Assembly (NCBI RefSeq): GCF_016756535.1
Contig: NZ_AP023247.1
Span: 434,001 to 498,000 of the forward strand
Source of the DNA: Mesorhizobium sp. 131-2-1
GTDB taxonomy: Bacteria > Pseudomonadota > Alphaproteobacteria > Rhizobiales > Rhizobiaceae
Length of the DNA: 64,000 bases
Direction of reading: 5' to 3'
Shown piece after piece: positions 49,659 to 64,000 of the stretch; the first letter of the stretch is position 1; every line of letters begins with the position of its first letter. Both the position numbers and the translations under genes were made by a program. Below the pieces are notes generated by a model that saw only the letters and a list, made by a program, of their open reading frames with translations, was not told the origin of the DNA and did not search any database.

Positions 49659-50120
49659 TTACGCCAGCTTCGCCAGAAGGCGCATGAAGGTGGCGGCCTC
49701 CTTGGCCGACAGCGGCGCCAGAGTTTCCTCCGTGATGGCGCGAGCAAGCGGGATCAGACGCTCGATCGCCTCACGGCCCTGCGCCGTCAGGTTGACCAGC
49801 AGGCGGCGCTTGTCGACTTCGTGCTTTGAGACCTCCACAAGGCCGCGCGCCTTCAGCCGGTCGATGACGCCTTTCACCGTCGCGGCGTCCATGGCGATGA
49901 AGGTGCCGAGCTGATTCTGCGAGCTCTCGCCGATGTCGTGGAGCTTGGCGAGCGCAGCGAACTGCGGCGGCGTCAGATCGGCGATTTGCGCGGCGAAGAT
50001 CGCGACGTGGCGCTGATGCGCCTTGCGCAGGATGAAGCCGACCTGATCCTGCAAATGATAGCCGTTTTCGTCCGGCTCCTCGGCCTCGACGAGACGCAGC
50101 AGATTGTCCTCGCCGCTCAT
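49659..50120 (-). CDS. MarR-family regulator closing the nicotinate-type operon
   Basis: A 153-residue MarR protein. The winged helix is visible in LTPPQFAALAKLHDIGESSQNQLGTFIAMDAATVKGVIDRLKARGLVEVSKHEVDKRRLLVNLTAQG. It is the last gene of the leftward operon, and its ATG at 50120 overlaps the preceding stop (ATGA). In known aerobic nicotinate degraders the pathway is repressed by MarR proteins (NicR in Pseudomonas, BpsR in Bordetella) that respond to 6-hydroxynicotinate. A similar role here is inferred from context. A palindrome at 56830-56847 in the operon promoter is the candidate operator. Confidence 0.9.
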   Translation of the reverse strand: MSGEDNLLRLVEAEEPDENGYHLQDQVGFILRKAHQRHVAIFAAQIADLTPPQFAALAKLHDIGESSQNQLGTFIAMDAATVKGVIDRLKARGLVEVSKHEVDKRRLLVNLTAQGREAIERLIPLARAITEETLAPLSAKEAATFMRLLAKLA

Positions 50121-50701
50121 CTCAACCCGTCCCACGCCTTGATGTCCTCGGCCACGAGGCCGCCCATGCGATCATGCACGCGCGGGCCGCAGGTCATGGC
50201 GAGGCAGAACAGGATCTCGTCGGGACGCGGCCCGTCGCTGACGCCGACCTCCATGGCGTCGAAATGGCTGCGCACATAGGCGGCGTTGATGTGGCCGAGC
50301 GGCACGTCGAGCCGCGAACCGAAGGCGCCGACCTTCTTGGCCGACGGCACGATCGCCTTGGCGCCGCCCAGGCGCTCGCGCATGGCGTAGCCACCGGGCA
50401 CGTGCCAGAGCGCGCCGTGCTCCAGCTCGCCGGCGGAGCCGACGATGGCGCCCTTGCCGTAGCCATCGATCTCCTTCACGTCGCCACCGAGCGCCGCGAT
50501 CAGCCGATCTGCCAGCATCAGGCCGAGCGGCTTCAAGTCGTCCATGGCGCCCTGCAGCTCTTCGACGTAGCGGCCGGCGAAGGGGTTCTTCACCACGGCA
50601 AGGGCGGCGGCGCGGCGGCGTGGCTGCTTCGCCATCGGACCGCCGTCGTGAAATATCTCTTCAGTCAGGACCGCGATCTTGCGGATCGGAAATTCAGGCA
50701 T
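50117..50701 (-). CDS. Amino acid synthesis (AA_synth, PF06684) family protein
   Basis: A 194-residue protein of the so-called amino acid synthesis family, whose real reaction is not established. Typical segments are FPIRKIAVLTEEIFHDGG at the N-terminus, VKNPFAGRYVEEL, GYGKGAIVGSAGELEHGALWHVPGG, AIVPSAKKVGAFGSRLDVPLGHINAAYVRSH and GPRPDEILFCLAMTCGPRVHDRMGG. No metal or nucleotide motif is obvious; conserved Lys, His and Glu residues could be catalytic. It overlaps UPF0280 (eight bases) and the MarR gene (four bases). Its fixed place after the ring-reductase homologue makes it a candidate for a ring-opening or later step. Confidence 0.85.
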   Translation of the reverse strand: MPEFPIRKIAVLTEEIFHDGGPMAKQPRRRAAALAVVKNPFAGRYVEELQGAMDDLKPLGLMLADRLIAALGGDVKEIDGYGKGAIVGSAGELEHGALWHVPGGYAMRERLGGAKAIVPSAKKVGAFGSRLDVPLGHINAAYVRSHFDAMEVGVSDGPRPDEILFCLAMTCGPRVHDRMGGLVAEDIKAWDGLR

Positions 50702-51578
50702 GGGCAGTTTCCTTCGCTTTGTGCTTGTTGGGCGCGACGAGCGCCACGGAACCACTGATGCGTGTCTCACCGGCAAGGAAAAGCGCCGAGGCGGCGACCA
50801 GGCCGCGCCGGCGAAACTCTTCGGCGACGGCAAGCCCGTTGTCCAGCGCCCGCGCCACCTCGCCCTGCGAAAGCGCCCCGACGCCCTGTGTCACCAGCAG
50901 GTCGCCGAGATCGCTGTCGGGCGCAAGATCGCGTGCCGGCACGCGCGTGATGGCAGCGTGTCCGGGCAGATCGACGGCGTTGGCGATGAGCGTTGCCGCG
51001 GCGTCGGCCTCGGCGCCGGTCCGCGCCAGCACGGTGACGGCGTCGGCGATGCCGAGCGAAAACGAGCGGCCGCGCCAGCCGCTGGTCGCGACGCCGCGTA
51101 CGCCATCTTCGGCATGAACGGTGATGCGGTCGGCAAGGCCATGCCCGGTGCCGGCTATGGCCAAGGTCATCAATTGTCCGGCGCCAAGATGGAAGGCGCT
51201 GTCGCCGCCATTGTTGACATAGGCGCGGTCGAGCTTTCGTCCGGCAAGCAGCGCCGCAAGAATTTCGTCGGCTACCGATCCGGCGACGGCCGCCATCGGC
51301 GTGATGAATGTTTCCGCCAGCGGCGCGACAGCGGCCTCCATGCGGCGCGCGGTCGGCCCGGCAAAGGCGCGAAGGCGCAAGGCGGCCGGGCGGCGCAGCT
51401 CGGGAAGCTCCACGACCAGTTCCGGCAGAATCGTCTGGAAGCGCGCGAGGGCCTGACCGTAGGCGGCGCGGCATTCGCCCGCCTCGCCAAAGACCTCGAC
51501 GACCAGGTCGATCGGCCCATGGTTGAGGTGAAGCCGCCTGCCGTCGGCGAGCCAGTGCGCCTGCGGGCCGGTCATCAT
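50694..51578 (-). CDS. UPF0280 family protein (ApbE-like fold)
   Basis: A 294-residue UPF0280 protein. It shows AYVNNGGDSAFHLGAGQLMTLAIAG, ATSGWRGRSFSLGIADAVTVLA, and DLGDLLVTQGVGALSQGEVARALDNG, typical of the family. From general knowledge the family is placed with ApbE-like flavin transferases by fold; the NNGGD motif recalls the ApbE nucleotide site, so FMN attachment or flavin handling is one possibility. The start at 51578 overlaps the reductase stop (ATGA); a second ATG follows one codon on. It sits between the 6-hydroxynicotinate reductase homologue and AA_synth. Function is otherwise unknown. Confidence 0.85.
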   Translation of the reverse strand: MMTGPQAHWLADGRRLHLNHGPIDLVVEVFGEAGECRAAYGQALARFQTILPELVVELPELRRPAALRLRAFAGPTARRMEAAVAPLAETFITPMAAVAGSVADEILAALLAGRKLDRAYVNNGGDSAFHLGAGQLMTLAIAGTGHGLADRITVHAEDGVRGVATSGWRGRSFSLGIADAVTVLARTGAEADAAATLIANAVDLPGHAAITRVPARDLAPDSDLGDLLVTQGVGALSQGEVARALDNGLAVAEEFRRRGLVAASALFLAGETRISGSVALVAPNKHKAKETAHA

Positions 51579-53116
51579 CCGGCCCCGTTCGCCGCGGCAC
51601 GCCGCAGCTGCGCCAGCGGCGGCCAGGGGTTGTTGACCGCGGCGCCGGCGCCACGGCGGGGATTGAGATACTCGCCGCCCCTGGCGAGGATATCCTCGAC
51701 GCTGCGTATCTCCGCCTCGTAGCCGCCCAACCTGACATAGTCGTCGCGGCGCAAGGTGAACTCGATCGGCGCCACCAGCGCCGGTGTCGGCACATAGCCG
51801 AAGGCGCCTTCCGGCACGCGGGTGACGTCGACCATCAGCGTGATGCCGCCGCCCGGCCAGACATAGACCGGCGCGCCGCCTACCGTCACGTAAGTCCTCA
51901 GGCCCTGCACCGAGCGGGTGAGGTTGACCGGGTTCTCGGTGACGCCGGCGCGCAGCGAGCCGCCGGCGCCGCCTATGAACAGCACGGTGCACAGCGCCGG
52001 CTCGCAATTGTCCTCGATCAGCCCGACCGATTTCTGCAGCCGCTCGGGGAACGGTTTTTGGACGGGCTTTAGCTCATCGTCGAGCTCGTAATAGGCGAAC
52101 TGCTCGCCGGTGGTGGAAACCATCAGCAGCGACAGGCCAGGCCGCGCGCCCTTCTTGGCGTTCCATTCGCCGAGGATCGACAGCGGATCGGAAATCGTGG
52201 TGCCGCCCCAGCCGAGGCCGGGCTCCGAGACCTTGAAATAGCGGCCGGGCGTCGAGCGGCGGCCGATGATTTTTATCCCCGTATCCTGCCAGCCCAGCAC
52301 CTTGCCGGCCTGATGCTCGGAGACGACGCCGGTGATGTGGTCGTCGACCACCACCACCTCGTCGACCAGACCGCGCCATTGCGTGGCGAACATGCCGATG
52401 GTGGCCGAGCCGCAGCCGACGCGCATGCGGTGCTCGACCTTGCCGTCGATGACCGGCGGTTTGCCGGCCTCGACGATTACCGTTGCGCCGCCGTCGATGG
52501 TGAGCTCCACCGGCTTGCGGTTGCAGAGGTTGAGCAGCGCGTCGCAGGTCGCGCGGCCCTCCGCCTTGGAGCCGCCGGTCAGGTGATGCACGCCGCCGAG
52601 CGACAGCATCTGCGAGCCGTATTCGCCTGTCGTGACATGGCCGATCGCCTCGCCTTCGGAGCGCACGGTTGCCGTCTCGTCACCGATGTGACGGTCGGTG
52701 TCGATCTTCACCTTGACGCCGCAGTAGGAGAAGATGCCCTCGGTGACGACGGTGACGAGATCGACGCCCTCGACCTCCTGGCTGACGATGAATGGCGCGG
52801 GTTTGTAGTCGGGATAGGTGGTGCCGGCGCCGATGGCGCTGACGAAGCGCCGGCCGGTGTTGACCAGTTCGCCGTTCCAGGCCTCGCCCTCGGCGACGAA
52901 CGGTACGACCGCGCCGCCGGTCTCGGCCGCGTGGTCGAGGATGGTCAGCGGATCCATGCGCACGATGCGGCCGCCGACATTGCCGTAGCGGTCGCAGGCG
53001 CCGGTGCGGCCGTCGGCGATGTAGCACATGACCGGGCAGGCATCGCAGCGGATCTTCTCCGCCACCTGCTTCTCGCCCGGGTCGTGCGTCTCAAAACGTT
53101 CGGCGAGCTCGCTCAT
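51575..53116 (-). CDS. hnr: 6-hydroxynicotinate reductase homologue
   Basis: A 513-residue protein of the 6-hydroxynicotinate reductase family. That enzyme reduces 6-hydroxynicotinate to 6-oxo-1,4,5,6-tetrahydronicotinate, the key step of the reductive route first worked out in Eubacterium barkeri. The N-terminus has four cysteines, C24, C27, C31 and C41 (CDACPVMC ... GAC), for an iron-sulfur cluster. Further family segments are [32 protein letters not shown], and [30 protein letters not shown]. Its start overlaps the Mo-hydroxylase stop. Divergent homologues might act on other N-heterocycles, so the substrate call rests on the family plus the neighbouring nicotinamidase. Confidence 0.82.
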
Positions 53117-55908
53117 CGGCGTGCCTCCTTGTCGCGGATCGCCGCGCGGATGCGGCTCGGTGTCGCCGGCACCTTGGTGACCAGCACGCCGGTGGCGTGG
53201 CGGATGGCGTTGAGGATCGCCGGCGCGGTCGGGATCAGCACGTGCTCGCCCAGGCCCTTGGCGCCGAAGGGCCCTTCCGGGTCCGGAACCTCGACCAGTA
53301 TGTGCTCGACCGGCGGCACGTCGCCGATGGTCGGGATGAGGTAGTCGTGCAGGTTCTCGGTGCGGCCGGGGATGTATTCCTCCATCAGCGCCATGCCGAT
53401 GCCTTGCGCGATGCCGCCCTCGATCTGACCTTCGACCAGCAGCGGATTGATCGCCTTGCCGACATCGTGCGCGGCGGTGATCTTGATCAGCTTTACGGTG
53501 CCCAGCTTGAGATCGACCTCCAGCTCGGCGATCTGCGCGCCATAGCCATAGACGGCGTAAGGCTTGCCCTGGCCCTTGGCGTCCAACGGCAGCGTCGGCG
53601 GGTCGTAGGTTTCTTCCGCAACGAACACCAGCCCGTCGGCATCGGCCTTCAGCTCAGACAGGTCGATCCGCCGTGTCGCGTCGCCTTCGCGAATGAAGAC
53701 GCCGAAGCCGTCGAGCGCGATGGTCGCCCGGTCAGAGACATTGGCGAAGCGCAGGATTTTTTCACGCAGCGCGCGGCCTGCCTTCTCGGCTGCCTTGCCG
53801 GTCACAAAAGTCTGGCGCGAGGCGGACGTCTTGCCGGCGTCGGGCGTGATCGCTGTATCGGCGCCCTTCAGGCGGAATTTTTCCAGCGGCAGGCCGAGCG
53901 CGTCGGCGCAGATCTGGCTGATGACGGTATTCGATCCCTGGCCGATATCGACGGCGCCCTGGTGCAGCACGACCTCGCCCGCGGCCGAGATGCCGACCTT
54001 GATGGTCGAGGGGTTGGGCAGCGAGGTGTTGCCGCAGCCATACCAGCAGGAAGCCACGCCGACGCCTCGCTTTCTGTCCTCGTTGCTGGCATTGAACGCC
54101 GCGACCTCGGCGAGCGAGCGGGCCCAATGCGGGCGCAGCGACTCCAGGCATTCGCCGATGCCGACGCCAGACTCCAGGCGCTGGCCGGTCACCGTTTCGG
54201 TGCCGTTACGAAGGCAGTTTCTAAGGCGGAAATCGAGGCGATCCATGCCGAGCTTGCCGGCGAGCTCATCGTAGAGCGTCTCCTGCATGATCGTCGCCTG
54301 CGGCACGCCGAAGCCGCGGAAGGCGCCGGAGATCGGGCCGTTGGTGTGGATGGCGCGGCCCTCGGCGCGGTAGTTCGGCGTCAAATAGGGGCCGGAGGCA
54401 TGCACCGGCACGCGATTGGCGACGGTCGGGCCCCAACTGGCATAGGCGCCGGTGTTGAAATCGCCGGAAAAGACCATGCCGGTGACGCGGCCGCCGACAT
54501 CGGCGCCGATCGTCGCCTGCATTTCGGCGGGATGACGCTTGGTGGTCGAGACCATCGATTCGTTGCGGGTGTAGGCAAGGGCCGCCGGGCGGCCCGTCTT
54601 CATCGCCACCAGGCCGATGAGAGGCTGCAGCGAGACGTCGAGCTTGGAGCCGAAGCCGCCGCCGGTGGCGGTCGGCACGATGCGCACCTTGTCTGCGGGA
54701 AGACCGAGCACCTTTGCCGTGTCGTCGCGGTCCATATAGGGCGCCTGCGTGCAGGCGACGACGACGAGCGTGTCGCCGTCCATGTAAGCATAGCCGGCTT
54801 CCGGCTCGATATAGGCGTGCTCGACATAGGAGGTTTCGATGGCGCCGGACACGGTGACCGCGGCACCGGCCAGGGCGGCGTCAGGATCGCCGCGTTCGAC
54901 AAAGCCGGAGGTGAGCAGGTTCGCGAGGCGGTGTGGATGAAGTAGCGCCGCGCCATCGGCTTTCGCATCGCAGGGCTGCAGGGCGTGCGGCAGTTCGGTC
55001 CAGGAGACCGGAAAGTCCGTCAGGTCGAGATCGAGGATCGCCTCACGCTCGCCAGCAACCAGCGCCACCGCCTCGCCGCGAAAGCGCGCGAAGCCTTCCG
55101 CGAGGGCCGGCTGGTCGGCGAAGGGACCGATGACGCCGAAGCAGTTGTGGCCGGGAATGTCGGCGGCCGTGAAGACGCCGGCGATGCCGTGGCGGGCGTC
55201 CGCCCAGGCTTCAAGATCGCCGAAGGCGAAGCGGGCATGGTAGTGCGGCGAGCGGACCACAAGTACGGCCAAAGCATCGGCCGGGAAGGAGTCGCCGCCA
55301 AACTTCTCGTCGCCGGTGACCTTCGGCACGCCATCGAGGCGGATCGGCGAGGCGCCGACGGCGCGGCCAGCTTCTGGCATGCGAGGATCGAGGCTGTCGA
55401 CACGACGCGATGCGTCCATGACGGCGGCGATGATCTTGCGGTAGCCGGTGCAGCGGCACAGCACGCCGCCCAACGCGTCCTGCGTCTCGGCCTCGCTCGG
55501 CTGGGGATTGCGTTCGAGAAGTGCGGTCGCCGCCACCAGCAGGCCCGGCGTGCAGATGCCGCATTGCGCCGCGCCATGCTCCAGGAACGAGGCCTGCAGC
55601 GCCGACAGCCTGCCATTCGCAAGACCCTCGACGGTGGTGACGGCCGCGCCCGACACGGAAGCCGCCGGCACCAGGCAGGCGCAGACCGGGTTGCCGTCGA
55701 CCAGCACGGTGCAGGCACCGCAGTCGCCGGCATCGCAGCCGACCTTGGTGCCGGTCAGCCGCAATTCGTCGCGCAACACCTGGGAAAGGCGACGTACCGG
55801 CGGCACGGCGACGCTGACGGCAGCGCCGTTGACCTTGAAGGCGATGTCGGTGTGTTCCACGCTCATGCCGGGATGGACTTCGTTCATCTGAGGCTGAACT
55901 TTGCTCAT
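53113..55908 (-). CDS. Molybdenum hydroxylase, fused 2Fe-2S + molybdopterin subunit (nicotinate dehydrogenase candidate)
   Basis: A 931-residue xanthine-oxidase-family subunit in which the small iron-sulfur protein is fused to the N-terminus of the catalytic subunit. The 2Fe-2S cysteines are C58, C63, C66, C78 and C116, C119, C151, C153 ([15 protein letters not shown]). The molybdopterin part starts near residue 185 and shows [36 protein letters not shown], and [10 protein letters not shown] with the catalytic Glu. These residues fit an N-heterocycle hydroxylase. The neighbouring reductase homologue and nicotinamidase point to nicotinate C6 hydroxylation. It is distinct from XdhAB at 4-8 kb, and no dedicated XdhC-like gene is in this operon. 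It overlaps both flanking genes by four bases. Confidence 0.85.
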
Positions 55909-56765
55909 GCGGCCACCTTGTCGCCAGCAGCGTGGCCGATGGCGCCGAGCACGGCGCGGGCGACGATCTCGCGCGCCGCATCCAGCCGGTATTCGGCGCT
56001 GCCGCGCACGTCGGCGATCGGCGACAGTTCGTCGATCGGCGCGGCGAGCACGGCATGGGAAATGGCGTCGTTGGCCGGCAGGCCGAGCAAGGCCGCCTCG
56101 ACGCCCGCAAGGCGCTTGGCGACCGCCGAGCAGGCGCCGACGGCGACGGCCGCCTCGGCGACCACGCCGTCCTCGACGACGAGGCGCGCCGCCGCCATGG
56201 CGATGGAGATGACCAGATAGCGCCGCGCGCCGAGCTTGACGAAAGTCGATGTGCCGCCGGCCGCCCGCTTCGGGACCCGGATGGCGGTGACCATCTCGCC
56301 CGACGCCAGGGCGGTGCGGCGATTGCCGAGGATGAATTCGCCGAGCGGCAGACGGCGCGCTGCCTTGGCCGAGCGCAGTTCGACCTCGGCGTCGAGCACC
56401 AGCAGTGGCGGCACGCCATCGGCGGCGGGCGAGGCGTTGCAGAGATTGCCGGCGATCGAGGCGACATTCTGTATCTGAACCGAGCCGACTTCGCGCGCGG
56501 CCGCCTTCAGCGCATCGAAGGCGCCCGGCAGCGGATGGCGGACCAGATCGGTCCAGGTGGTTCGCGCGCCGATCAGCCAGTGCGTCTCGCTTTCAGCGAT
56601 GCCGCGCAGGGCCGTCAGGCCGTTGATGTCGAGGATGTTTTCGCGAAACGGCTTGTTGCCTTGCGCCGGATAGAAATCGGTGCCGCCCGCCAGGATGCGC
56701 CAGCGATCCTCGCCAAGCAAGGCGAGCGCCTCGTCGACCGTGGTGGGTTTCGCGTAACGGATCAC
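55905..56765 (-). CDS. FAD-binding subunit of the molybdenum hydroxylase
   Basis: A 286-residue protein of the CO-dehydrogenase medium-chain/FAD family, providing electron exit for the fused subunit downstream. Visible are [11 protein letters not shown] (first FAD loop), [28 protein letters not shown] (second FAD motif and a conserved Gly-Asn-Leu), and the C-terminal CO_deh_flav domain ([37 protein letters not shown]). GTG at 56765 follows GGAAGG and gives the normal length. It is the first gene of the six-gene leftward operon, with its promoter in the 252-base space shared with pncA. Confidence 0.9.
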
Positions 56766-56829
56766 GCTTTGCCTTCCCAGAAAAAGGGGCCTTTGCGAGG
56801 GAACCTGCCGGCGCTCCACCGGTCAAAAT

Positions 56830-56847
56830 TCATTCGTATGCAAATGA
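56830..56847. promoter_or_regulatory. Candidate MarR operator in the divergent pncA/Mo-hydroxylase promoter
   Basis: TCATTCGTATGCAAATGA is an inverted repeat matching at 14 of 18 positions (CATTyGyATrCrAATG core). It lies 65 bases upstream of the operon's first start and in the space shared with pncA. The size and AT-rich ends fit MarR-family operators. The regulator encoded at the end of the operon is the natural candidate to bind it. Confidence 0.6.
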
Positions 56848-57017
56848 TATCAAGTCGGCGGCAATTGTCAAAGCCGGAGTTTCCGGCCTCCGCATCGGCG
56901 AGTGGTTCCACGCGAATGTTATGCCGTTGGAGGTTGACGTCGCCGGTCATCTGGTCAAGTTTCTGCCTCCGGTCGCGACAGCGGCATTTACTTGAGCCCA
57001 CGCTGAGGAGGAGGCCC

Positions 57018-57632
57018 ATGGCCGACGAAGCGCTTGTTGTCATCGACCTGCAAAACGACTTCTGCCCTGGCGGCGCGCTGGCGGTGGCCGGCGGCGACGA
57101 GATCGTGCCGCTGGTCAACGACCTGATCCGGCACACCGAGCATGTGGTGCTGACGCAGGACTGGCACCCTGCCGGCCATTCGAGCTTCGCTTCGAGCCAT
57201 CCGGGCAAGCAGCCGTTCGAGACTATCGACATGGCTTACGGAGCGCAGACTCTGTGGCCCGACCATTGCATCCAGGGCAGCATCGGCTCCGATTTCCACT
57301 CGGGGCTTGCCTGGACCAAGGCGGAGCTGGTGATCCGCAAGGGTTTCCGCCCGGCGATCGACAGCTATTCTGCCTTCTTCGAGAACGACCACGCGACGCA
57401 AACCGGTCTTGCCGGCTATCTGCGCGAACGCGGCATCGACACGGTGACGCTGGTCGGGCTGGCCACCGACTTCTGCGTCGCCTTCTCGGCGCTGGACGCC
57501 GTCAAGCAAGGTTTCAAGACGACGGTGCGGCTCGACGCCTGCCGGGGCATCGACCTCAACGGCTCGGTCAATGCGATGCTGACGCGGATGCGCGAGGCCG
57601 GCGTGGTGCTCGAAGACCATTTGTCGGACTGA
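57018..57632 (+). CDS. pncA: Nicotinamidase PncA
   Basis: A 204-residue isochorismatase-fold nicotinamidase that hydrolyses nicotinamide to nicotinate and ammonia. The catalytic triad is visible: Asp in VVIDLQNDFCPGG, Lys in ELVIRKGFRP, and Cys in GLATDFCVAFSALDA. The metal site is the Asp/His/His of DWHPAGHSSFASSH. The ATG at 57018 follows GAGGAGGAG. It is divergent from the molybdenum hydroxylase operon, so its product may be the substrate of that operon. It may also feed NAD salvage, which is the usual role of PncA. It is followed closely by the antiporter-like gene. Confidence 0.95.
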   Translation: MADEALVVIDLQNDFCPGGALAVAGGDEIVPLVNDLIRHTEHVVLTQDWHPAGHSSFASSHPGKQPFETIDMAYGAQTLWPDHCIQGSIGSDFHSGLAWTKAELVIRKGFRPAIDSYSAFFENDHATQTGLAGYLRERGIDTVTLVGLATDFCVAFSALDAVKQGFKTTVRLDACRGIDLNGSVNAMLTRMREAGVVLEDHLSD

Positions 57633-57639
57633 CCGGACT

Positions 57640-59091
57640 GTGGAGCGTCGAGGGGGCTTCATACAATTGGCGAAGGCTCTGGCTGCAGGCGTTCCTACCC
57701 TGGCTGCACTTCTGTTTCCGCAATTCGCCTTCGCAGCGGAGAACCACGAACTGCCGGGCGAGGCGATGTCGCTGTGGTGGGCGCTGCCATTTGCCGGGCT
57801 GCTGTTGTCGATCGCCACCGGACCCCTGGTGTTCCACCACGTCTGGGAGCATCACTACGGCAAGATCACAGCAGGCTGGGCAGCGCTGGTGGTGGTGCCG
57901 CTGGCGATCGTGTTCGGCATGCCTTCGGCCACAGAAGCGGTGCTGCACACGCTGCTCACCGAATACATGTCCTTCATCATCCTGCTGTTCGCGCTCTACA
58001 CGATCTCTGGCGGTGTCCTGCTCGCCGGCAACATCCATGGCACGCCGCTGGTCAATGCCGGGCTTCTGCTTGCCGGGGCGCTGCTTGCCTCGGTGATCGG
58101 CACGACCGGCGCCTCGATGATCCTGATCCGGCCGATCCTGCGCGCCAACGACAACCGGCCGTTCAATGCCCATGTCGTCATCTTCTTCATCTTCCTGGTC
58201 TCCAACATCGGCGGCTCGCTGACGCCGCTCGGCGACCCGCCACTGTTCGTCGGCTTCCTGCGCGGCGTCGACTTCTTCTGGACGACCGCCAATCTCTGGC
58301 GCGAGACGCTGTTTACCGGTGGGCTGGTGCTCATCGTCTTCCTGGGCATCGACATCATGCTGCACCGGCGCGAAGGCGGTACGCCCAAGATCAAGGACCC
58401 GACGCCAGATAAAGAGGTCCGCCTGCGCGGTCTGCCCAACATTCCGCTACTGGCCGGGGTGATCGGCGCGATCCTGCTGTCGGCGACCTGGAAACCGGGC
58501 TTCAGCATCTCCATCCTCGGCATCGGCCTCGAGCTGCAGAACCTGGTGCGCGACGCCATCATCCTGGCGCTGGCGGGCGCTTCGCTCGCCGTCTCGCGCA
58601 AGAGCCATCGCGAGGCGAACGGCTTCAGCTGGGGACCAATCGCCGAGGTGGCAAAATTGTTTGCCGGCATCTTCATCGCAATAGTGCCGGTCATCGCCAT
58701 CCTGAGAGCCGGCCCCGGCGGCGCGCTGGCACCGCTGGTCGCGCTGGTCACCTCGCCTTCCGGCCAGCCCAACGACCTCGCCTATTTCTGGCTGACCGGC
58801 GCGCTGTCGTCCTTCCTCGACAATGCGCCGACCTATCTGGTGTTCTTCGAGCTCGCCGGCGGCGACGCAAAGCACCTGATGACGGAGGCCGCCTCGACGC
58901 TCGCCGCGATCTCCACCGGCGCCGTGTTCATGGGCGCCAACACCTATATCGGCAATGCACCGAACTTCATGGTCTTTGCGATTGCCAGGCATCGCGGCGT
59001 GAAGATGCCGGGCTTCTTCGGCTATATGGCGTGGTCGGGCCTGGTGCTGATCCCGACGTTTTTGATTGCCGGCTTCCTGTTTTTCGGTTGA
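57640..59091 (+). CDS. Sodium:proton antiporter-like membrane protein (NhaD/citrate-transporter type)
   Basis: A 483-residue ion-transporter-superfamily protein with about twelve helices. Relevant segments are LLLSIATGPLVFHHVWEHHYGKI, IIGTTGASMILIRP, VSNIGGSLTPLGDPPLFVGFLRG, FLDNAPTYLVFFELAGGD, and GAVFMGANTYIGNAPNFMVFAIA, matching the NhaD/CitMHS-like pattern often annotated sodium:proton antiporter. The open frame starts at GTG 57640, seven bases after pncA. A TTG at 57667, with GAGGGGG upstream and followed by a signal-like helix, is an equally good start. Transport of a carboxylate such as nicotinate instead of ions cannot be excluded. Confidence 0.85.
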   Translation: MERRGGFIQLAKALAAGVPTLAALLFPQFAFAAENHELPGEAMSLWWALPFAGLLLSIATGPLVFHHVWEHHYGKITAGWAALVVVPLAIVFGMPSATEAVLHTLLTEYMSFIILLFALYTISGGVLLAGNIHGTPLVNAGLLLAGALLASVIGTTGASMILIRPILRANDNRPFNAHVVIFFIFLVSNIGGSLTPLGDPPLFVGFLRGVDFFWTTANLWRETLFTGGLVLIVFLGIDIMLHRREGGTPKIKDPTPDKEVRLRGLPNIPLLAGVIGAILLSATWKPGFSISILGIGLELQNLVRDAIILALAGASLAVSRKSHREANGFSWGPIAEVAKLFAGIFIAIVPVIAILRAGPGGALAPLVALVTSPSGQPNDLAYFWLTGALSSFLDNAPTYLVFFELAGGDAKHLMTEAASTLAAISTGAVFMGANTYIGNAPNFMVFAIARHRGVKMPGFFGYMAWSGLVLIPTFLIAGFLFFG

Positions 59092-59177
59092 GCCGAAAAG
59101 CCAACCGGCGCTTGCGTATGCCGGGCCGGCAATTTCTGCTATTGTCAAGGGGATGCGGGGTTAGGTCGGGGGCGACA

Positions 59178-60134
59178 TTGACCATCGAAAAGCTGCCCTA
59201 TCTGTCAGCCGAATTCCTGGATGGCTTGGCGATTTCGACGTCCGATGTGGTCGACGAAATCGAGCGGCAGATCATCGGTCAGAGGCGGGGCGAAGTATGG
59301 TGTGCGCCCAAGGCGGTGGTGCTGCCGGGCGACGACCGCTACATCATGGCGACACTTGCCGTCGCGACCGAGCCCCGGGTGCTGGCCACCAAATCGCTGG
59401 TGGTTAATCCCCGTAACCTCGAGCGGGGACTTGCAACCCTGAACTCGCTGGTCACCCTTCTCGACGCCGAGACGGGACTGCCGCTTGCCGTGGTCGACGG
59501 CAATTGGGTGACTTCGAAGCGCACGGCCGGCCTAAGCTGCGTGGCGGCCAAGCGTCTGGCCCGGGCTGGCTCGGCATGTTTCGCATTCGTCGGGTGCGGC
59601 GTTCAGGCGCGCGCTCACCTCGAGGCTCTGGCCGATCTTTTTCCGGTGCGAGAGATTCGAGCCTTTAGTCGGGGCAAAGGCAGTCGCGACGCGCTGTGCC
59701 AGATAGCCGAGACGCGCGGTCTGACTGCAGTAGCGAGCGATACCGCCAAAGCGGCGGTCGAATCCGCCGACATCGTGGTGACGACAGTCACTTTGGTGCC
59801 TGAGCCGGTTCCATTTCTGGATGCGCGCTGGCTGAAGGCGGGAGTCTTCGCGACCATGACCGATCTGGCCCTGCCTTGGCTGCCCGAATCCATAGCCATT
59901 TTTGACCGCATCGTCATAGACGATCTGGTGCAAGAGGCGCAGATGAGCAAGCCGATGGTGAGGCCCGAACTCGTCGCCGGCGACCTGACGGGTCTGGTCA
60001 ACGGCGACGTGCCAGGTCGTCAAGGCGCGAGTGAGCGAACAGCGTTCGCGTTCCGCGGCATGGCGGTCGGCGATCTCGCAATAGCCGGCCTGGCATTTGT
60101 ACGCGCGAAAGCGAGCGGTGCGCTGGACGCCTAG
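59178..60134 (+). CDS. Ornithine cyclodeaminase / mu-crystallin family protein
   Basis: A 318-residue NAD(P)-dependent protein of the OCD/mu-crystallin family, which contains ornithine cyclodeaminase, imine reductases and alanine dehydrogenase-type enzymes. Seen are VNPRNLERGLATLNSLVTLLDAETGLPLAVVDG, the conserved RTAGLSCVAAKRLAR, the Rossmann stretch FAFVGCGVQARAHLEAL, and SADIVVTTVT. The start is a TTG at 59178 with GGGGG upstream; no ATG fits. Which imine or amino acid it uses is unclear, since the family is promiscuous. It faces the livF gene tail to tail with about 20 bases between. Confidence 0.88.
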   Translation: MTIEKLPYLSAEFLDGLAISTSDVVDEIERQIIGQRRGEVWCAPKAVVLPGDDRYIMATLAVATEPRVLATKSLVVNPRNLERGLATLNSLVTLLDAETGLPLAVVDGNWVTSKRTAGLSCVAAKRLARAGSACFAFVGCGVQARAHLEALADLFPVREIRAFSRGKGSRDALCQIAETRGLTAVASDTAKAAVESADIVVTTVTLVPEPVPFLDARWLKAGVFATMTDLALPWLPESIAIFDRIVIDDLVQEAQMSKPMVRPELVAGDLTGLVNGDVPGRQGASERTAFAFRGMAVGDLAIAGLAFVRAKASGALDA

Positions 60135-60153: not shown

Positions 60154-60873
60154 TCACCCGACGCCGACATACCGCCGCACCGCCGACGGATCGGCGCGCA
60201 ATTGCTCGACATCGACGGTCTCGCGGTTGCGGCCGTTCTCGATGAAGGCGACACGGTCGGCGACCGACAGCACGGCATCGACGCGCTGCTCGACCAGAAT
60301 GGTTGAGACGCCGCGCTCGCGCAGCTTGGCCACCGTCTCGCGGATCTTGGCGATCATCGACGGCATCAGCCCTTCGGTCGGCTCGTCGAGCAGCAACACT
60401 TGCGGTTCGAGGCAGAGGGCGCGGGCCATGGCCAGCATCTGCTGCTCGCCGCCGGATAGCGTGCCGGAGCGCTGCCTGAGACGCTGACGCAGCAACGGGA
60501 AGAGATCGAGCACGCTCTCCCGGGTCGCCTTGCCCTTGCCGCGTGTCATCAGGCCGATCTCGATGTTTTCCGCCACCGTCATCTCGGCGAACAATCGCCT
60601 GCCCTGCGGCACATAGGCGACGCCGGCCTTCGGCACGTCATGCGCCGCCAGGGCGGTGAGTTCCGTGCCGTCCAGGCTGATCGAGCCGGCCGCCGCCGGA
60701 ACCAGGCCCATGATCGCCTTCAGCGTCGTCGTCTTGCCGGCGCCGTTGCGGCCGAACAGGCAAAGCACCTCGCCCTTGTTGAGGACAAGATCGAGCCCGT
60801 AGAGCACCTGGACCTCGCCGTAGAAGCAGTCGAGCCCGGAGATTGCCAGCGCTTTGGAGCCTGCCTCAGTCAT
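60154..60873 (-). CDS. livF: Branched-chain amino acid-type ABC transporter ATPase LivF
   Basis: A 239-residue ATPase. Walker A is GRNGAGKTT, the signature LSGGEQQMLAMARAL, and Walker B QVLLLDEPTEGL, followed by the LivF-type VEQRVDAVLSVADRVAFIENG. The ATG at 60873 overlaps the end of livG; a GTG at 60882 is three codons longer. It is the last gene of the leftward binding protein-H-M-G-F importer. The specificity of the family covers branched amino acids, urea, amides and aromatic acids. Confidence 0.93.
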   Translation of the reverse strand: MTEAGSKALAISGLDCFYGEVQVLYGLDLVLNKGEVLCLFGRNGAGKTTTLKAIMGLVPAAAGSISLDGTELTALAAHDVPKAGVAYVPQGRRLFAEMTVAENIEIGLMTRGKGKATRESVLDLFPLLRQRLRQRSGTLSGGEQQMLAMARALCLEPQVLLLDEPTEGLMPSMIAKIRETVAKLRERGVSTILVEQRVDAVLSVADRVAFIENGRNRETVDVEQLRADPSAVRRYVGVG

Positions 60874-61594
60874 CGCCGCCACCCAGATAGGCGTCCTGCA
60901 CTTGGCGGTTCTCGCGAACCTGTTCCGGCGTGCCTTCGGCCAGGATGCGGCCGGCGTTGAAGACGGTGATGCGGTCGGCGAGCTGCATGACGACGGGCAT
61001 GTTGTGCTCGATCAGAAGCACGGTGGCGCCCTTGGCGATCTCGCGCACCAGTTCGATGAAATTGTCGATCTCGCTGTCGGCCAGGCCTTGCGTCGGTTCG
61101 TCGAGGATCAGGAGGCGCGGCTTCAGCGCCAGGCCCATCGCCACTTCGAGCAGCCGCTGATGGCCGTAGGAGAGCTGGCCTGCCGGCATATGGGCGCGAT
61201 CAGCAAGGCCGGTGCGCTCGAGCGCGGCCATGACGCCGGTGCGCACCGCGCCCTTCGAGCGGCCGTCGGTCAGCGTGCGCTGCACTGGCAGCGCGACATT
61301 GTCGTAGGCGGAGAGATTGGCGAAGACGCTGGTGATCTGGAAGGTATAGGCGACGCCGAGGCGAACCCTTCGGTAAGCCGGCAGGTTGGTGATGTCGGCG
61401 CCGTCGAAGACGATCATGCCCGACGATGGCTGAATGCGGCCGCTGACCAGGCTTACGAAGGTGGTCTTGCCGGCGCCATTGGGGCCGATGACGGCGCGGA
61501 TCTCGCCCGGCATCAGCGCGAAGTCGACGCCGTCGACAGCACGCAGGCCGCCGAAATTGCGGGACAGGCCCTTGGTGGTCAGAAGCGGCATCAT
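60866..61594 (-). CDS. livG: Branched-chain amino acid-type ABC transporter ATPase LivG
   Basis: A 242-residue ATPase with Walker A GPNGAGKTTF, the signature LSYGHQRLLEVAMGL (LivG proteins carry LSYGQQ, here with His), Walker B RLLILDEPTQGL, and the LivG C-terminal extension VFNAGRILAEGTPEQVRENRQVQDAYLGG. The ATG at 61594 overlaps the livM stop (ATGA), and a second ATG follows. It pairs with LivF to form the ATPase dimer of the importer. Confidence 0.93.
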   Translation of the reverse strand: MMPLLTTKGLSRNFGGLRAVDGVDFALMPGEIRAVIGPNGAGKTTFVSLVSGRIQPSSGMIVFDGADITNLPAYRRVRLGVAYTFQITSVFANLSAYDNVALPVQRTLTDGRSKGAVRTGVMAALERTGLADRAHMPAGQLSYGHQRLLEVAMGLALKPRLLILDEPTQGLADSEIDNFIELVREIAKGATVLLIEHNMPVVMQLADRITVFNAGRILAEGTPEQVRENRQVQDAYLGGGDD

Positions 61595-62553
61595 GGCAGC
61601 CACCCGAGCCAGCGCTGGCGGATACTGCCCATGATCCCCTTCGGGAAGAACAGCACCAGCAGGATGAGCGCGACGCCGACGATCAGCAGATAGGCGGAGG
61701 TGAAGCCGCTGGTGATGTCGGTGACATAGTACATGAACAGCGTGCCGATGAGGGGCCCGAGCGCGGTGGCGGCGCCGCCGAGCAGCACCCAGAGCAATGG
61801 CAGGATGGAATACTGCACCGAGGCGAAGCTGGAGCCGACATAGCCGAACAGCAGTGCATAGGCGGCGCCCGAGGCCGCGCAGATGGTGCCGGAGACGACG
61901 ACGGCAGCGAGCTTGTTGGAGAAGGTGTCGTAGCCCAGCATCTTCGTCCGCTCCTCATTCTCGCGGACGGCGACCAGCACGCGGCCATAGCGGGAGCGGA
62001 CGACGGCAAGCGTTGCCAGCAGGACAATGGAGAACAGCGCCAGCGCGCTCATGTAGCGCACGGTCGGGTTGGTGAGGTCGAGGGTCGTACCGCCGAGGGT
62101 CAGCACCCGCGCCGCTTGCTGAACGACCAGGCCCTGGTCGCCGCCGGTCCAGACGGCGAAATAGAGGATCAGGAGCAGGAACACCTGCGCGAACATCATG
62201 GTGACGATCATGAACGCGACACCGGAGGTGCGCAGTGCCAGCACACCGATCACCAGGGCCAGCAGCGCGCCGCAGGCGATGCCGGCCAGGAAGGCGACCG
62301 GCACGCTCCAGCCGAGGTGATAGACGCTCAAGCCCGCGCCGTAGAGGCCGGCGGCAAAGAACATGGCATGGCCAAGGCTGAGCAGGCCGACATAGCCGAA
62401 CAGGAGATTGTAGCCCATGGCGAACACCGCCAGCACCATGATGCGGGCGATGAGGCCGTGATGGTAGTCCGGCAGGACGAAGCTCAGCGCGAAGAGAAGG
62501 GCGATGACGCCAAGATGCAGCGCGTAGGCCTTTGCCGGCGAAGCTTCCGTCAT
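61591..62553 (-). CDS. livM: ABC transporter permease LivM
   Basis: A 320-residue permease with about ten helices. The LivM core is YNLLFGYVGLLSLGHAMFFAAGLYGAG, and the ATPase-contact loop is RSRYGRVLVAVRENEERTKMLGYDTF. The start overlaps the livH stop (ATGA) and the stop overlaps livG, so the whole permease-ATPase block is translationally coupled. Confidence 0.94.
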   Translation of the reverse strand: MTEASPAKAYALHLGVIALLFALSFVLPDYHHGLIARIMVLAVFAMGYNLLFGYVGLLSLGHAMFFAAGLYGAGLSVYHLGWSVPVAFLAGIACGALLALVIGVLALRTSGVAFMIVTMMFAQVFLLLILYFAVWTGGDQGLVVQQAARVLTLGGTTLDLTNPTVRYMSALALFSIVLLATLAVVRSRYGRVLVAVRENEERTKMLGYDTFSNKLAAVVVSGTICAASGAAYALLFGYVGSSFASVQYSILPLLWVLLGGAATALGPLIGTLFMYYVTDITSGFTSAYLLIVGVALILLVLFFPKGIMGSIRQRWLGWLP

Positions 62554-63431
62554 CGCGACGCCGTCCCGAACAGGCCCTGCGGCCGGAACACCAGCACCAT
62601 GGCAACGACAAGCGTGGCGATGATCTTGGCCAGCGTCGGCGAGAAGAACATCGAGATGATGCCGTCAGACAGGCCGATCAGCACGGCGGCGACGATGGTG
62701 CCGCGCAACGAGCCGAGGCCGCCGATGATGACGACGATGAAGGAGAGCAGCAGTGGATCCTGCCCCATCAGATAGTGCGCCTGGCTGATCGGCACGATCA
62801 GCACCGCGGCGATGGCCGCCAGCATGGCGCCGAGCGCGAAGACGCCGGCATAGACACGGTCAACCGGAATGCCGAAAGCCTGCGCGGTTTCGCTGTCATA
62901 TTGGGTGGCGCGCATGACGAGGCCGATTCTGGTGCGCGTCAGCACCAGCCATGTGGCGACGAGCAGCAGCACCGAGGCGGCGACGACCGACAGCTTGTAG
63001 CCGGAATAGCCGAACCAGGGCAGAAGGATGCGGTAGCTGAAGGGCGGCTCGACCGGGCGCGCCTCGGGGCCGTAGAAGGTCAGCGCCAGCTGCTGGATGA
63101 TGTAGAGCATGCCGATGGTGGCGACGATGGTGGCTTCCGGATTGTAATTGAGCCGGCGCAGCACCAGCCGCTCCGCAAGCAACGCAACCGCGCCGACGAT
63201 CAGCGGTGCGATCACCAGCGCGGCGACGAAGCCAATGGCCGGATGACCCGAAATCGCGGTCGAGATCGCCCAGGCCAGCACCGCGCCGAGCATGAAGAAT
63301 TCGCCATGAGCGACGTTGACGACGCGCATGACGCCGAACACCAGCGACAGGCCAAGCGCCGTCAGCGCCAGCACCGCCGAGGTGACGAGGCCTTCGAGGG
63401 CGGCAAGGAGAAGGTGGGGTCCGAAGTGCAT
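62550..63431 (-). CDS. livH: ABC transporter permease LivH
   Basis: A 293-residue permease. LivH features are LTALGLSLVFGVMRVVNVAHGEFFMLGAVLAW near the N-terminus, the loop RTRIGLVMRATQYDSETAQAFGIPVDRVYA, and GGLGSLRGTIVAAVLIGLSDG. It is first of the coupled H-M-G-F block, 217 bases downstream of the binding-protein gene. That gap contains a long palindromic repeat. Confidence 0.94.
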   Translation of the reverse strand: MHFGPHLLLAALEGLVTSAVLALTALGLSLVFGVMRVVNVAHGEFFMLGAVLAWAISTAISGHPAIGFVAALVIAPLIVGAVALLAERLVLRRLNYNPEATIVATIGMLYIIQQLALTFYGPEARPVEPPFSYRILLPWFGYSGYKLSVVAASVLLLVATWLVLTRTRIGLVMRATQYDSETAQAFGIPVDRVYAGVFALGAMLAAIAAVLIVPISQAHYLMGQDPLLLSFIVVIIGGLGSLRGTIVAAVLIGLSDGIISMFFSPTLAKIIATLVVAMVLVFRPQGLFGTASR

Positions 63432-63648: not shown

Positions 63649-64000
63649 CTATAGCGCCTGCGTCGTGTAATCCCCTTCCGGCTCGTAGAGGCCATCCTCG
63701 ATCTTGGTCTTGTGGACGACCTTGAGCTTGCCGCCTTCGACCTTGGAGATGTTCTGGATGCCGAAGCACTGGTGGATCTTGCCGTTGAAGGTCTTGGGGC
63801 CCTGCGGATGCTCCGGCCCCTCGGCGAACTCCTTCAGCGCCTCGGTCGCCTCGACCAGCTTGGCGCGGTCTTCCGGTCCCTTGTAGCCGGCGTCTTCCAT
63901 CGCCTTCTTGACGACATAGAGCGTCTCCCAGCAGCCGAACATGTGCGAGGCCGTGGAGACGTCCTTGGGATCGCCGACGGCGGCGCCATTGTCGTCGATG
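63649..64000 (-). CDS. livK: ABC transporter substrate-binding protein, C-terminal part only
   Basis: The C-terminal 116 or so residues of a periplasmic binding protein, open at the right window edge. The segment DVSTASHMFGCWETLYVVKKAMEDAGYKGPEDRAKLVEA and the ending KLKVVHKTKIEDGLYEPEGDYTTQAL match the last lobe of Liv-type receptors (ligand-binding family with the FNGKIHQ-type loop). It is first in the importer operon. The ligand cannot be inferred without the N-terminal lobe. Confidence 0.85.
   Translation of the reverse strand, partial: IDDNGAAVGDPKDVSTASHMFGCWETLYVVKKAMEDAGYKGPEDRAKLVEATEALKEFAEGPEHPQGPKTFNGKIHQCFGIQNISKVEGGKLKVVHKTKIEDGLYEPEGDYTTQAL

Follow-up and report, generated by a model that had tools for sequence, protein, structure and literature searches.

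A probable reductive nicotinate cluster in Mesorhizobium with an unlinked candidate ring-opening lactamase and candidate roles for UPF0280 and AA_synth

In a window of 64,000 nucleotides from Mesorhizobium sp. 131-2-1 (NZ_AP023247.1, positions 434,001 to 498,000; positions below are those of the window unless a contig is named), six genes on the reverse strand form a compact run that we read as part of a probable system for the reductive catabolism of nicotinate. They encode the FAD subunit (55905..56765; FAD_binding_5, CO_deh_flav_C; start from the gene caller, the longest open reading frame (ORF) extending to 56819) and the fused 2Fe-2S/molybdopterin subunit (53113..55908; Fer2, Fer2_2, MoCoBD_1, MoCoBD_2) of a putative nicotinate 6-hydroxylase, a homologue of 6-hydroxynicotinate reductase (HNR; 51575..53116) that is named from its relatives and contains a CxxCx3Cx9C motif, a UPF0280 protein (50694..51578; PRK04334/NF003322, 388 bits against an NCBIfam cut-off of 290) with an ApbE-like fold and a predicted flavin-handling role beside HNR, an AA_synth protein (50117..50701; PF06684/DUF1185, 236 bits against a cut-off of 27) and a MarR-family regulator (49659..50135; PF01047, 46.8 bits). 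Successive gene ends overlap by 4, 4, 4, 8 and 19 bases. Divergent from them, on the forward strand, is a complete nicotinamidase/pyrazinamidase gene (PncA; 57018..57632; NF008623, 219 bits against a cut-off of 174); a 566-residue ORF around it is an over-long reading. ORFs, gene calls and family matches confirm the six overlapping leftward genes described in the sequence-only reading, and its divergent nicotinamidase is indeed intact.

The chemistry of the reductive nicotinate route has long been known, and a paper of 2012 already attributed a homologous cluster to it (PMC3511419). The proposal of such a route at this locus is well supported. Figure 4 of that paper places the cluster in Azorhizobium caulinodans ORS571 (AZC_2804-2790), Bradyrhizobium USDA110, R. 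palustris HaA2 and strain SG-6C, and the last of these degrades nicotinate, and also 6-hydroxynicotinate, as a source of carbon (PMC3511419). For Azorhizobium, that paper cites a route that runs by way of 6-oxo-tetrahydronicotinate and involves glutarate; PMC9304392 likewise cites the passage through 6-oxo-tetrahydronicotinate. Two proteins of the published cluster are given no role in the available part of PMC3511419; from the conserved gene order, we read them as UPF0280 and AA_synth. The window has the HNR homologue adjoining a Mo-hydroxylase that is typical of this cluster and has no enamidase, and we regard it as a variant. The pathway itself is already known; what our computational comparison adds is an exchange between HyuB and enamidase, a strict pairing of HNR with UPF0280, a protein of the ApbE fold, and a link between AA_synth and trigonelline-like clusters.

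Neither Pfam nor NCBIfam has a family that HNR matches above cut-off, and no relative was found among solved structures; its closest named relatives are from Mesorhizobium and carry the name 6-hydroxynicotinate reductase. The four cysteines of its motif are conserved in 34 to 35 of 35 sequences. The gene is present in 40 of 61 related genomes, namely 36 of the 37 from the same genus (its own included) and 4 of 24 others of the order. We assembled 100 HNR loci (the window's own, 80 from genome contigs and 19 from further genomes), a set that is weighted towards Mesorhizobium and in which L119/L141 and L078/L152 are each one record counted twice; HNR was called in 95 of them, the misses being L109 (fused call), L147 (split gene), L118, L123 and L124. 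The same series of neighbouring genes returns in the majority of these loci, beyond chance. Among the 80 with at least 4 kb on either side of HNR, we counted UPF0280 in 80, AA_synth in 71, the fused Mo subunit and the FAD subunit in 69 each, MarR in 68, LivF/G in 63, nicotinamidase in 42, HyuA in 29, HyuB in 22 and enamidase in 6. Seven loci lack the fused Mo subunit and have a separate 2Fe-2S protein instead, five of them together with a called Moco/cytochrome c protein, a set that we take to be the NicAB architecture. A ferredoxin-NADP-reductase-like gene (138 bits, under the NCBIfam cut-off of 390) occurs in 23 loci, and would be explained by a ferredoxin dependence of HNR such as we assume for the Eubacterium barkeri enzyme. 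HNR lies in two reading frames in L147 and in L052/L053 (G076:C1:2969820-2971255), as a natural split gene or through a frameshift, and a 796-residue HNR relative, P0080, has a precomputed molybdopterin-binding domain and is possibly a fusion with the Mo-hydroxylase.

The absence of an enamidase, stated in the sequence-only reading for the window, extends to the whole genome, in which a proteobacterial enamidase used as query gave no match at E 1e-20. In several relatives, an amidohydrolase near HNR matches the enamidase 2VUN (E 4.8e-109). Across 349 sampled genomes, 26 HNR-bearing and 323 HNR-negative, the enamidase clade (at least 64% identity) was found in 13 and the HyuB clade (at least 66% identity) in 15, every one of them HNR-bearing; jointly the two clades cover 26 of 26 HNR genomes and 0 of 323 others, and they coincide only in G030 and G249. 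Outside the window's genus, 11 genera divide into five with enamidase and six with HyuB, with no overlap. The HyuB clade is also present in all four additional HNR genomes examined (G040, G046, G055, G056), two of which have a 41-42% enamidase relative as well, while 17 HNR-negative genomes of the same searches contain neither clade. Among 32 further genomes of the same genus, HyuB was found in 30, the others being G013, which is HNR-negative, and G024. No locus among the 80 combines HyuA or HyuB with enamidase, and HyuA and HyuB stand in one run with HNR in L144 and L148-L151. Parsimony mapping on a tree of HNR from 33 loci requires three changes of ring-opener, some of the deciding nodes being weak. 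More distant HyuB copies (43-45%) occur in G222, G387 and G393, and L251 and L252, from same-genus genomes with the HyuB clade, are second loci at which an enamidase adjoins two tandem AA_synth copies and a MarR gene.

The genome under study encodes HyuB and HyuA in intact frames at C1:347952-351729, about 134 kb from HNR, between flanks that we read as gyrB and ferredoxin-NADP reductase. All three ATP motifs are present in its HyuA, as in 30 of 30 HyuA proteins of HNR loci. Asp41, His105, Asp108 and His130 of its HyuB align with Asp41, His99, Asp102 and His124 of CapB, the four metal ligands of that protein (PMC8453981), and the metal-ligand patterns are complete in 20 of 22 HyuB proteins of HNR loci. 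The best NCBIfam models are caprolactamase alpha and beta (504 and 319 of 1000 bits, under cut-off), which rank above acetophenone carboxylase, and among solved structures the nearest relatives hydrolyse amide rings. We infer that HyuAB would open the tetrahydronicotinate lactam at the expense of ATP.

UPF0280 was found only with HNR across the 349 genomes, and in the neighbourhood table that the sequence-only reading had suggested, it appears in 80 of 80 HNR loci, always on the HNR strand. The protein has the ApbE fold, with no match to PF02424 or to any Pfam family (E 0.01). It retains the Gly-Gly-Asp/Glu and Asp-x-x-x-Thr elements of ApbE, and all 40 sequences compared share its Gly124, Gly125, Asp126, Asp192 and Thr196. 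We take HNR to carry a covalent flavin, and most likely UPF0280 loads or attaches it.

PF06684 occurs in 49 of the 349 genomes, comprising 25 of the 26 that bear HNR (G194 is without it) and 24 HNR-negative ones, and all 13 genomes that have the enamidase also have AA_synth. Its solved relatives are 3BYQ and 2QTP. We compared 25 of the 26 AA_synth loci from the HNR-negative genomes: 13 lie with a luciferase-like monooxygenase, mostly accompanied by alpha/beta hydrolase, flavin reductase and aldehyde dehydrogenase genes (Pfam, single representatives), a gene set that resembles the trigonelline (tgn) genes, and the remaining 12 have other neighbours, including an enamidase-like gene in two (G343, G293). 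In a tree of 69 AA_synth sequences, the tgn-like members form one clade (support 1.00). Clade A (support 0.58) holds the window's protein, those of HyuAB loci and the first tandem copies, together with L241, L245 and L247 from HNR-negative genomes; clade B (support 0.97) goes with enamidase at every locus whose state could be assigned (all but L125), and the HNR-negative L232 branches beside it. In L240 and L242, from two HNR-negative genomes, an enamidase-like gene of 41-42% identity adjoins AA_synth. A second AA_synth gene of the genome under study lies in a trigonelline-like cluster (L250; G000:C1:2562000-2576000) beside genes for a fused alpha/beta-hydrolase/flavin-reductase protein of 596 residues, a luciferase-like monooxygenase and an aldehyde dehydrogenase. 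TgnF, a homologue of the DUF1185 protein HcdD, stimulates the oxidation of succinate semialdehyde by TgnE, and attempts to obtain similar stimulation by HcdD failed (PMC7913881). A 2-formyl dicarboxylate should be an intermediate of both the nicotinate and the trigonelline pathways, and we therefore place AA_synth at that step, where decarboxylation, tautomerisation or imine hydrolysis is a possible role, held with low confidence.

Several points weigh against these assignments and have to be set beside the alternative readings. The clade limits (HyuB at least 66% identity, the next match at 45%; enamidase 64%, the next at 42%) were drawn post hoc on data already seen, the whole-genome searches for the HyuAB pair used HyuB alone, and the co-occurrence statistics ignore the relatedness of the genomes. 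Distant homologues exist in HNR-negative genomes (enamidase relatives at 41-42% in G343 and G293, HyuB relatives at 45% in G334 and G351), G003 and G028 of the same genus have an extra HyuB copy at 55-57%, and HyuB was not found in the HNR-bearing G024, a fragmentary assembly of 3.3 Mb in 690 contigs. HyuAB belongs to a large family. In the window's genome the pair is unlinked, and its connection with the pathway comes only from co-occurrence and from the linkage seen in relatives. This lack of linkage, and the presence of both clades in G030 and G249, would suit a HyuAB that serves another step or compound and merely travels with HNR while an unrelated hydrolase opens the ring; we judge that unlikely, given the complementarity with enamidase (at the clade cut-offs, 26 of 26 HNR genomes are covered and no others), the occurrence of HyuA or HyuB within HNR loci of several lineages, and the nearest solved relatives. 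The ring-opener might instead be AA_synth, which is so widespread among HNR genomes and whose fold, we assume, resembles domains of cyanuric acid hydrolases. A chorismate-mutase-like fold is described for it (PMC2954203). Yet the presence of AA_synth in each of the 13 enamidase genomes, its absence from G194 and its occurrence in 24 HNR-negative genomes make this the least probable of the alternatives. The sequence-only reading had offered both UPF0280 and AA_synth for later steps or cofactor supply; cofactor supply fits UPF0280, given its ApbE fold and strict co-occurrence with HNR, but neither protein looks like a ring-opener, for which the unlinked HyuAB is the better candidate.

It is also conceivable that the cluster degrades another N-heterocycle and that nicotinate is not its main substrate, as the Mo-hydroxylase has no NCBIfam model above cut-off and the substrate assignment in Mesorhizobium rests on homology, SG-6C being the tested strain. 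We consider this improbable in view of the exchange, in 7 of 80 loci, of the fused Mo subunit for a presumed NicAB-type set, the match of the relatives' enamidase to 2VUN, and the degradation of nicotinate and 6-hydroxynicotinate by SG-6C, with its homologous cluster. A stronger competitor, doubtful though it is, concerns UPF0280, which might be a non-catalytic partner of HNR (a flavin-binding or structural subunit, or a chaperone) rather than a flavin transferase. In the profile alignment, it is without the His-x-x-Asp-Pro stretch whose histidine is invariant in nine of nine ApbE sequences compared, the HNR sequences contain no universally conserved ApbE-type target motif, and a common fold proves no function. 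The retained and invariant ApbE elements argue for flavin attachment. A further point against the main reading is the occurrence of UPF0280 relatives in two methanogens, in which HNR was not searched.

The nicotinamidase gene, although complete and divergent as first described, cannot be counted as a pathway-specific step, because it is the only copy found in its own genome (E 1e-20) and a match also exists in the single HNR-negative genome of the genus. Beyond it lie a gene that we read, without a family search, as a sodium/proton antiporter (57640..59091) and an ornithine-cyclodeaminase-family gene recognised by family match (59031..60134), which separate the nicotinamidase from a transporter; antiporter relatives occur in 25 of the 100 HNR loci. 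The transporter genes, ORFs named from sequence and, for LivF, also from place, are all on the reverse strand: a LivF-type ATPase of a putative nicotinate transporter (60154..60882), a LivG-type ATPase (60866..61603), LivM-type (61591..62553) and LivH-type (62550..63431) permeases, and the end of a substrate-binding protein gene (63649..64000) that runs past the window edge. Further on are a membrane protein gene and, about 2.7 kb from the edge, nicotinate phosphoribosyltransferase. Neither the transporter nor this phosphoribosyltransferase figures in the sequence-only reading.

On balance, we think it probable that these genes constitute a reductive catabolic system for nicotinate (vitamin B3), located in two chromosomal places and provided with a MarR regulator. 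Nicotinate would be imported by the Liv-type transporter or made from nicotinamide by PncA; by homology and from the published cluster, the two-gene Mo-hydroxylase would convert it to 6-hydroxynicotinate, and HNR, its flavin most likely supplied through UPF0280, would reduce the ring to the six-membered lactam 6-oxo-tetrahydronicotinate. Instead of an enamidase, an ATP-dependent lactamase of HyuAB/CapAB type, encoded at the unlinked locus, would open the lactam to 2-(aminomethylene)glutarate, which would hydrolyse to 2-formylglutarate. AA_synth, placed after ring opening on account of its second home in trigonelline-like clusters, would most plausibly act on 2-formylglutarate or its enamine, towards glutarate semialdehyde. 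That all three novel parts hold together (UPF0280 as a second, non-canonical ApbE-fold family dedicated to flavin attachment in HNR, HyuAB as a repeated replacement of enamidase, and AA_synth as a 2-formyl-dicarboxylate enzyme shared by nicotinate and trigonelline breakdown) is a tentative proposition, and rather unlikely in full. The analysis offers a candidate ring-opener for lineages without enamidase, a candidate maturation partner for a reductase with no solved relative, and a link from AA_synth to two pyridine-ring pathways; if these claims hold, two widespread uncharacterised families, UPF0280 and PF06684, would gain functions.

Compared with known systems, the cluster parallels the nicotinate fermentation of E. 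barkeri in its hydroxylation and subsequent reduction to 6-oxo-tetrahydronicotinate, by homology (for the HNR of SG-6C, PMC3511419 quotes 42% identity), but E. barkeri uses an enamidase (2VUN), and none was found in the Mesorhizobium genome. The aerobic route is described as continuing through glutarate (PMC3511419). Within the Azorhizobium/Bradyrhizobium type, seven genomes of one genus taken for Bradyrhizobium have enamidase with no clade HyuB found, whereas HyuB is nearly universal in Mesorhizobium. Like the ATP-dependent lactamases CapAB and OplAB, the latter reported to open delta-valerolactam (PMC11033972), the HyuAB pair is built of two subunits and has the ATP motifs and, as judged from alignment, the metal ligands, yet it scores below the caprolactamase cut-offs and forms a separate clade tied to HNR. 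UPF0280 differs from ApbE, the flavin trafficking protein (FMN transferase), in its lack of a PF02424 match and of His-x-x-Asp-Pro and in its linkage to HNR. TgnF of the trigonelline pathway is a homologue of a DUF1185/PF06684 protein (PMC7913881), the family of the window's AA_synth, but AA_synth sequences from trigonelline-like clusters group apart in a clade of their own, in a tree from which TgnF is absent, and the carbon chain handled by the window's cluster would be one longer than that of the trigonelline pathway.

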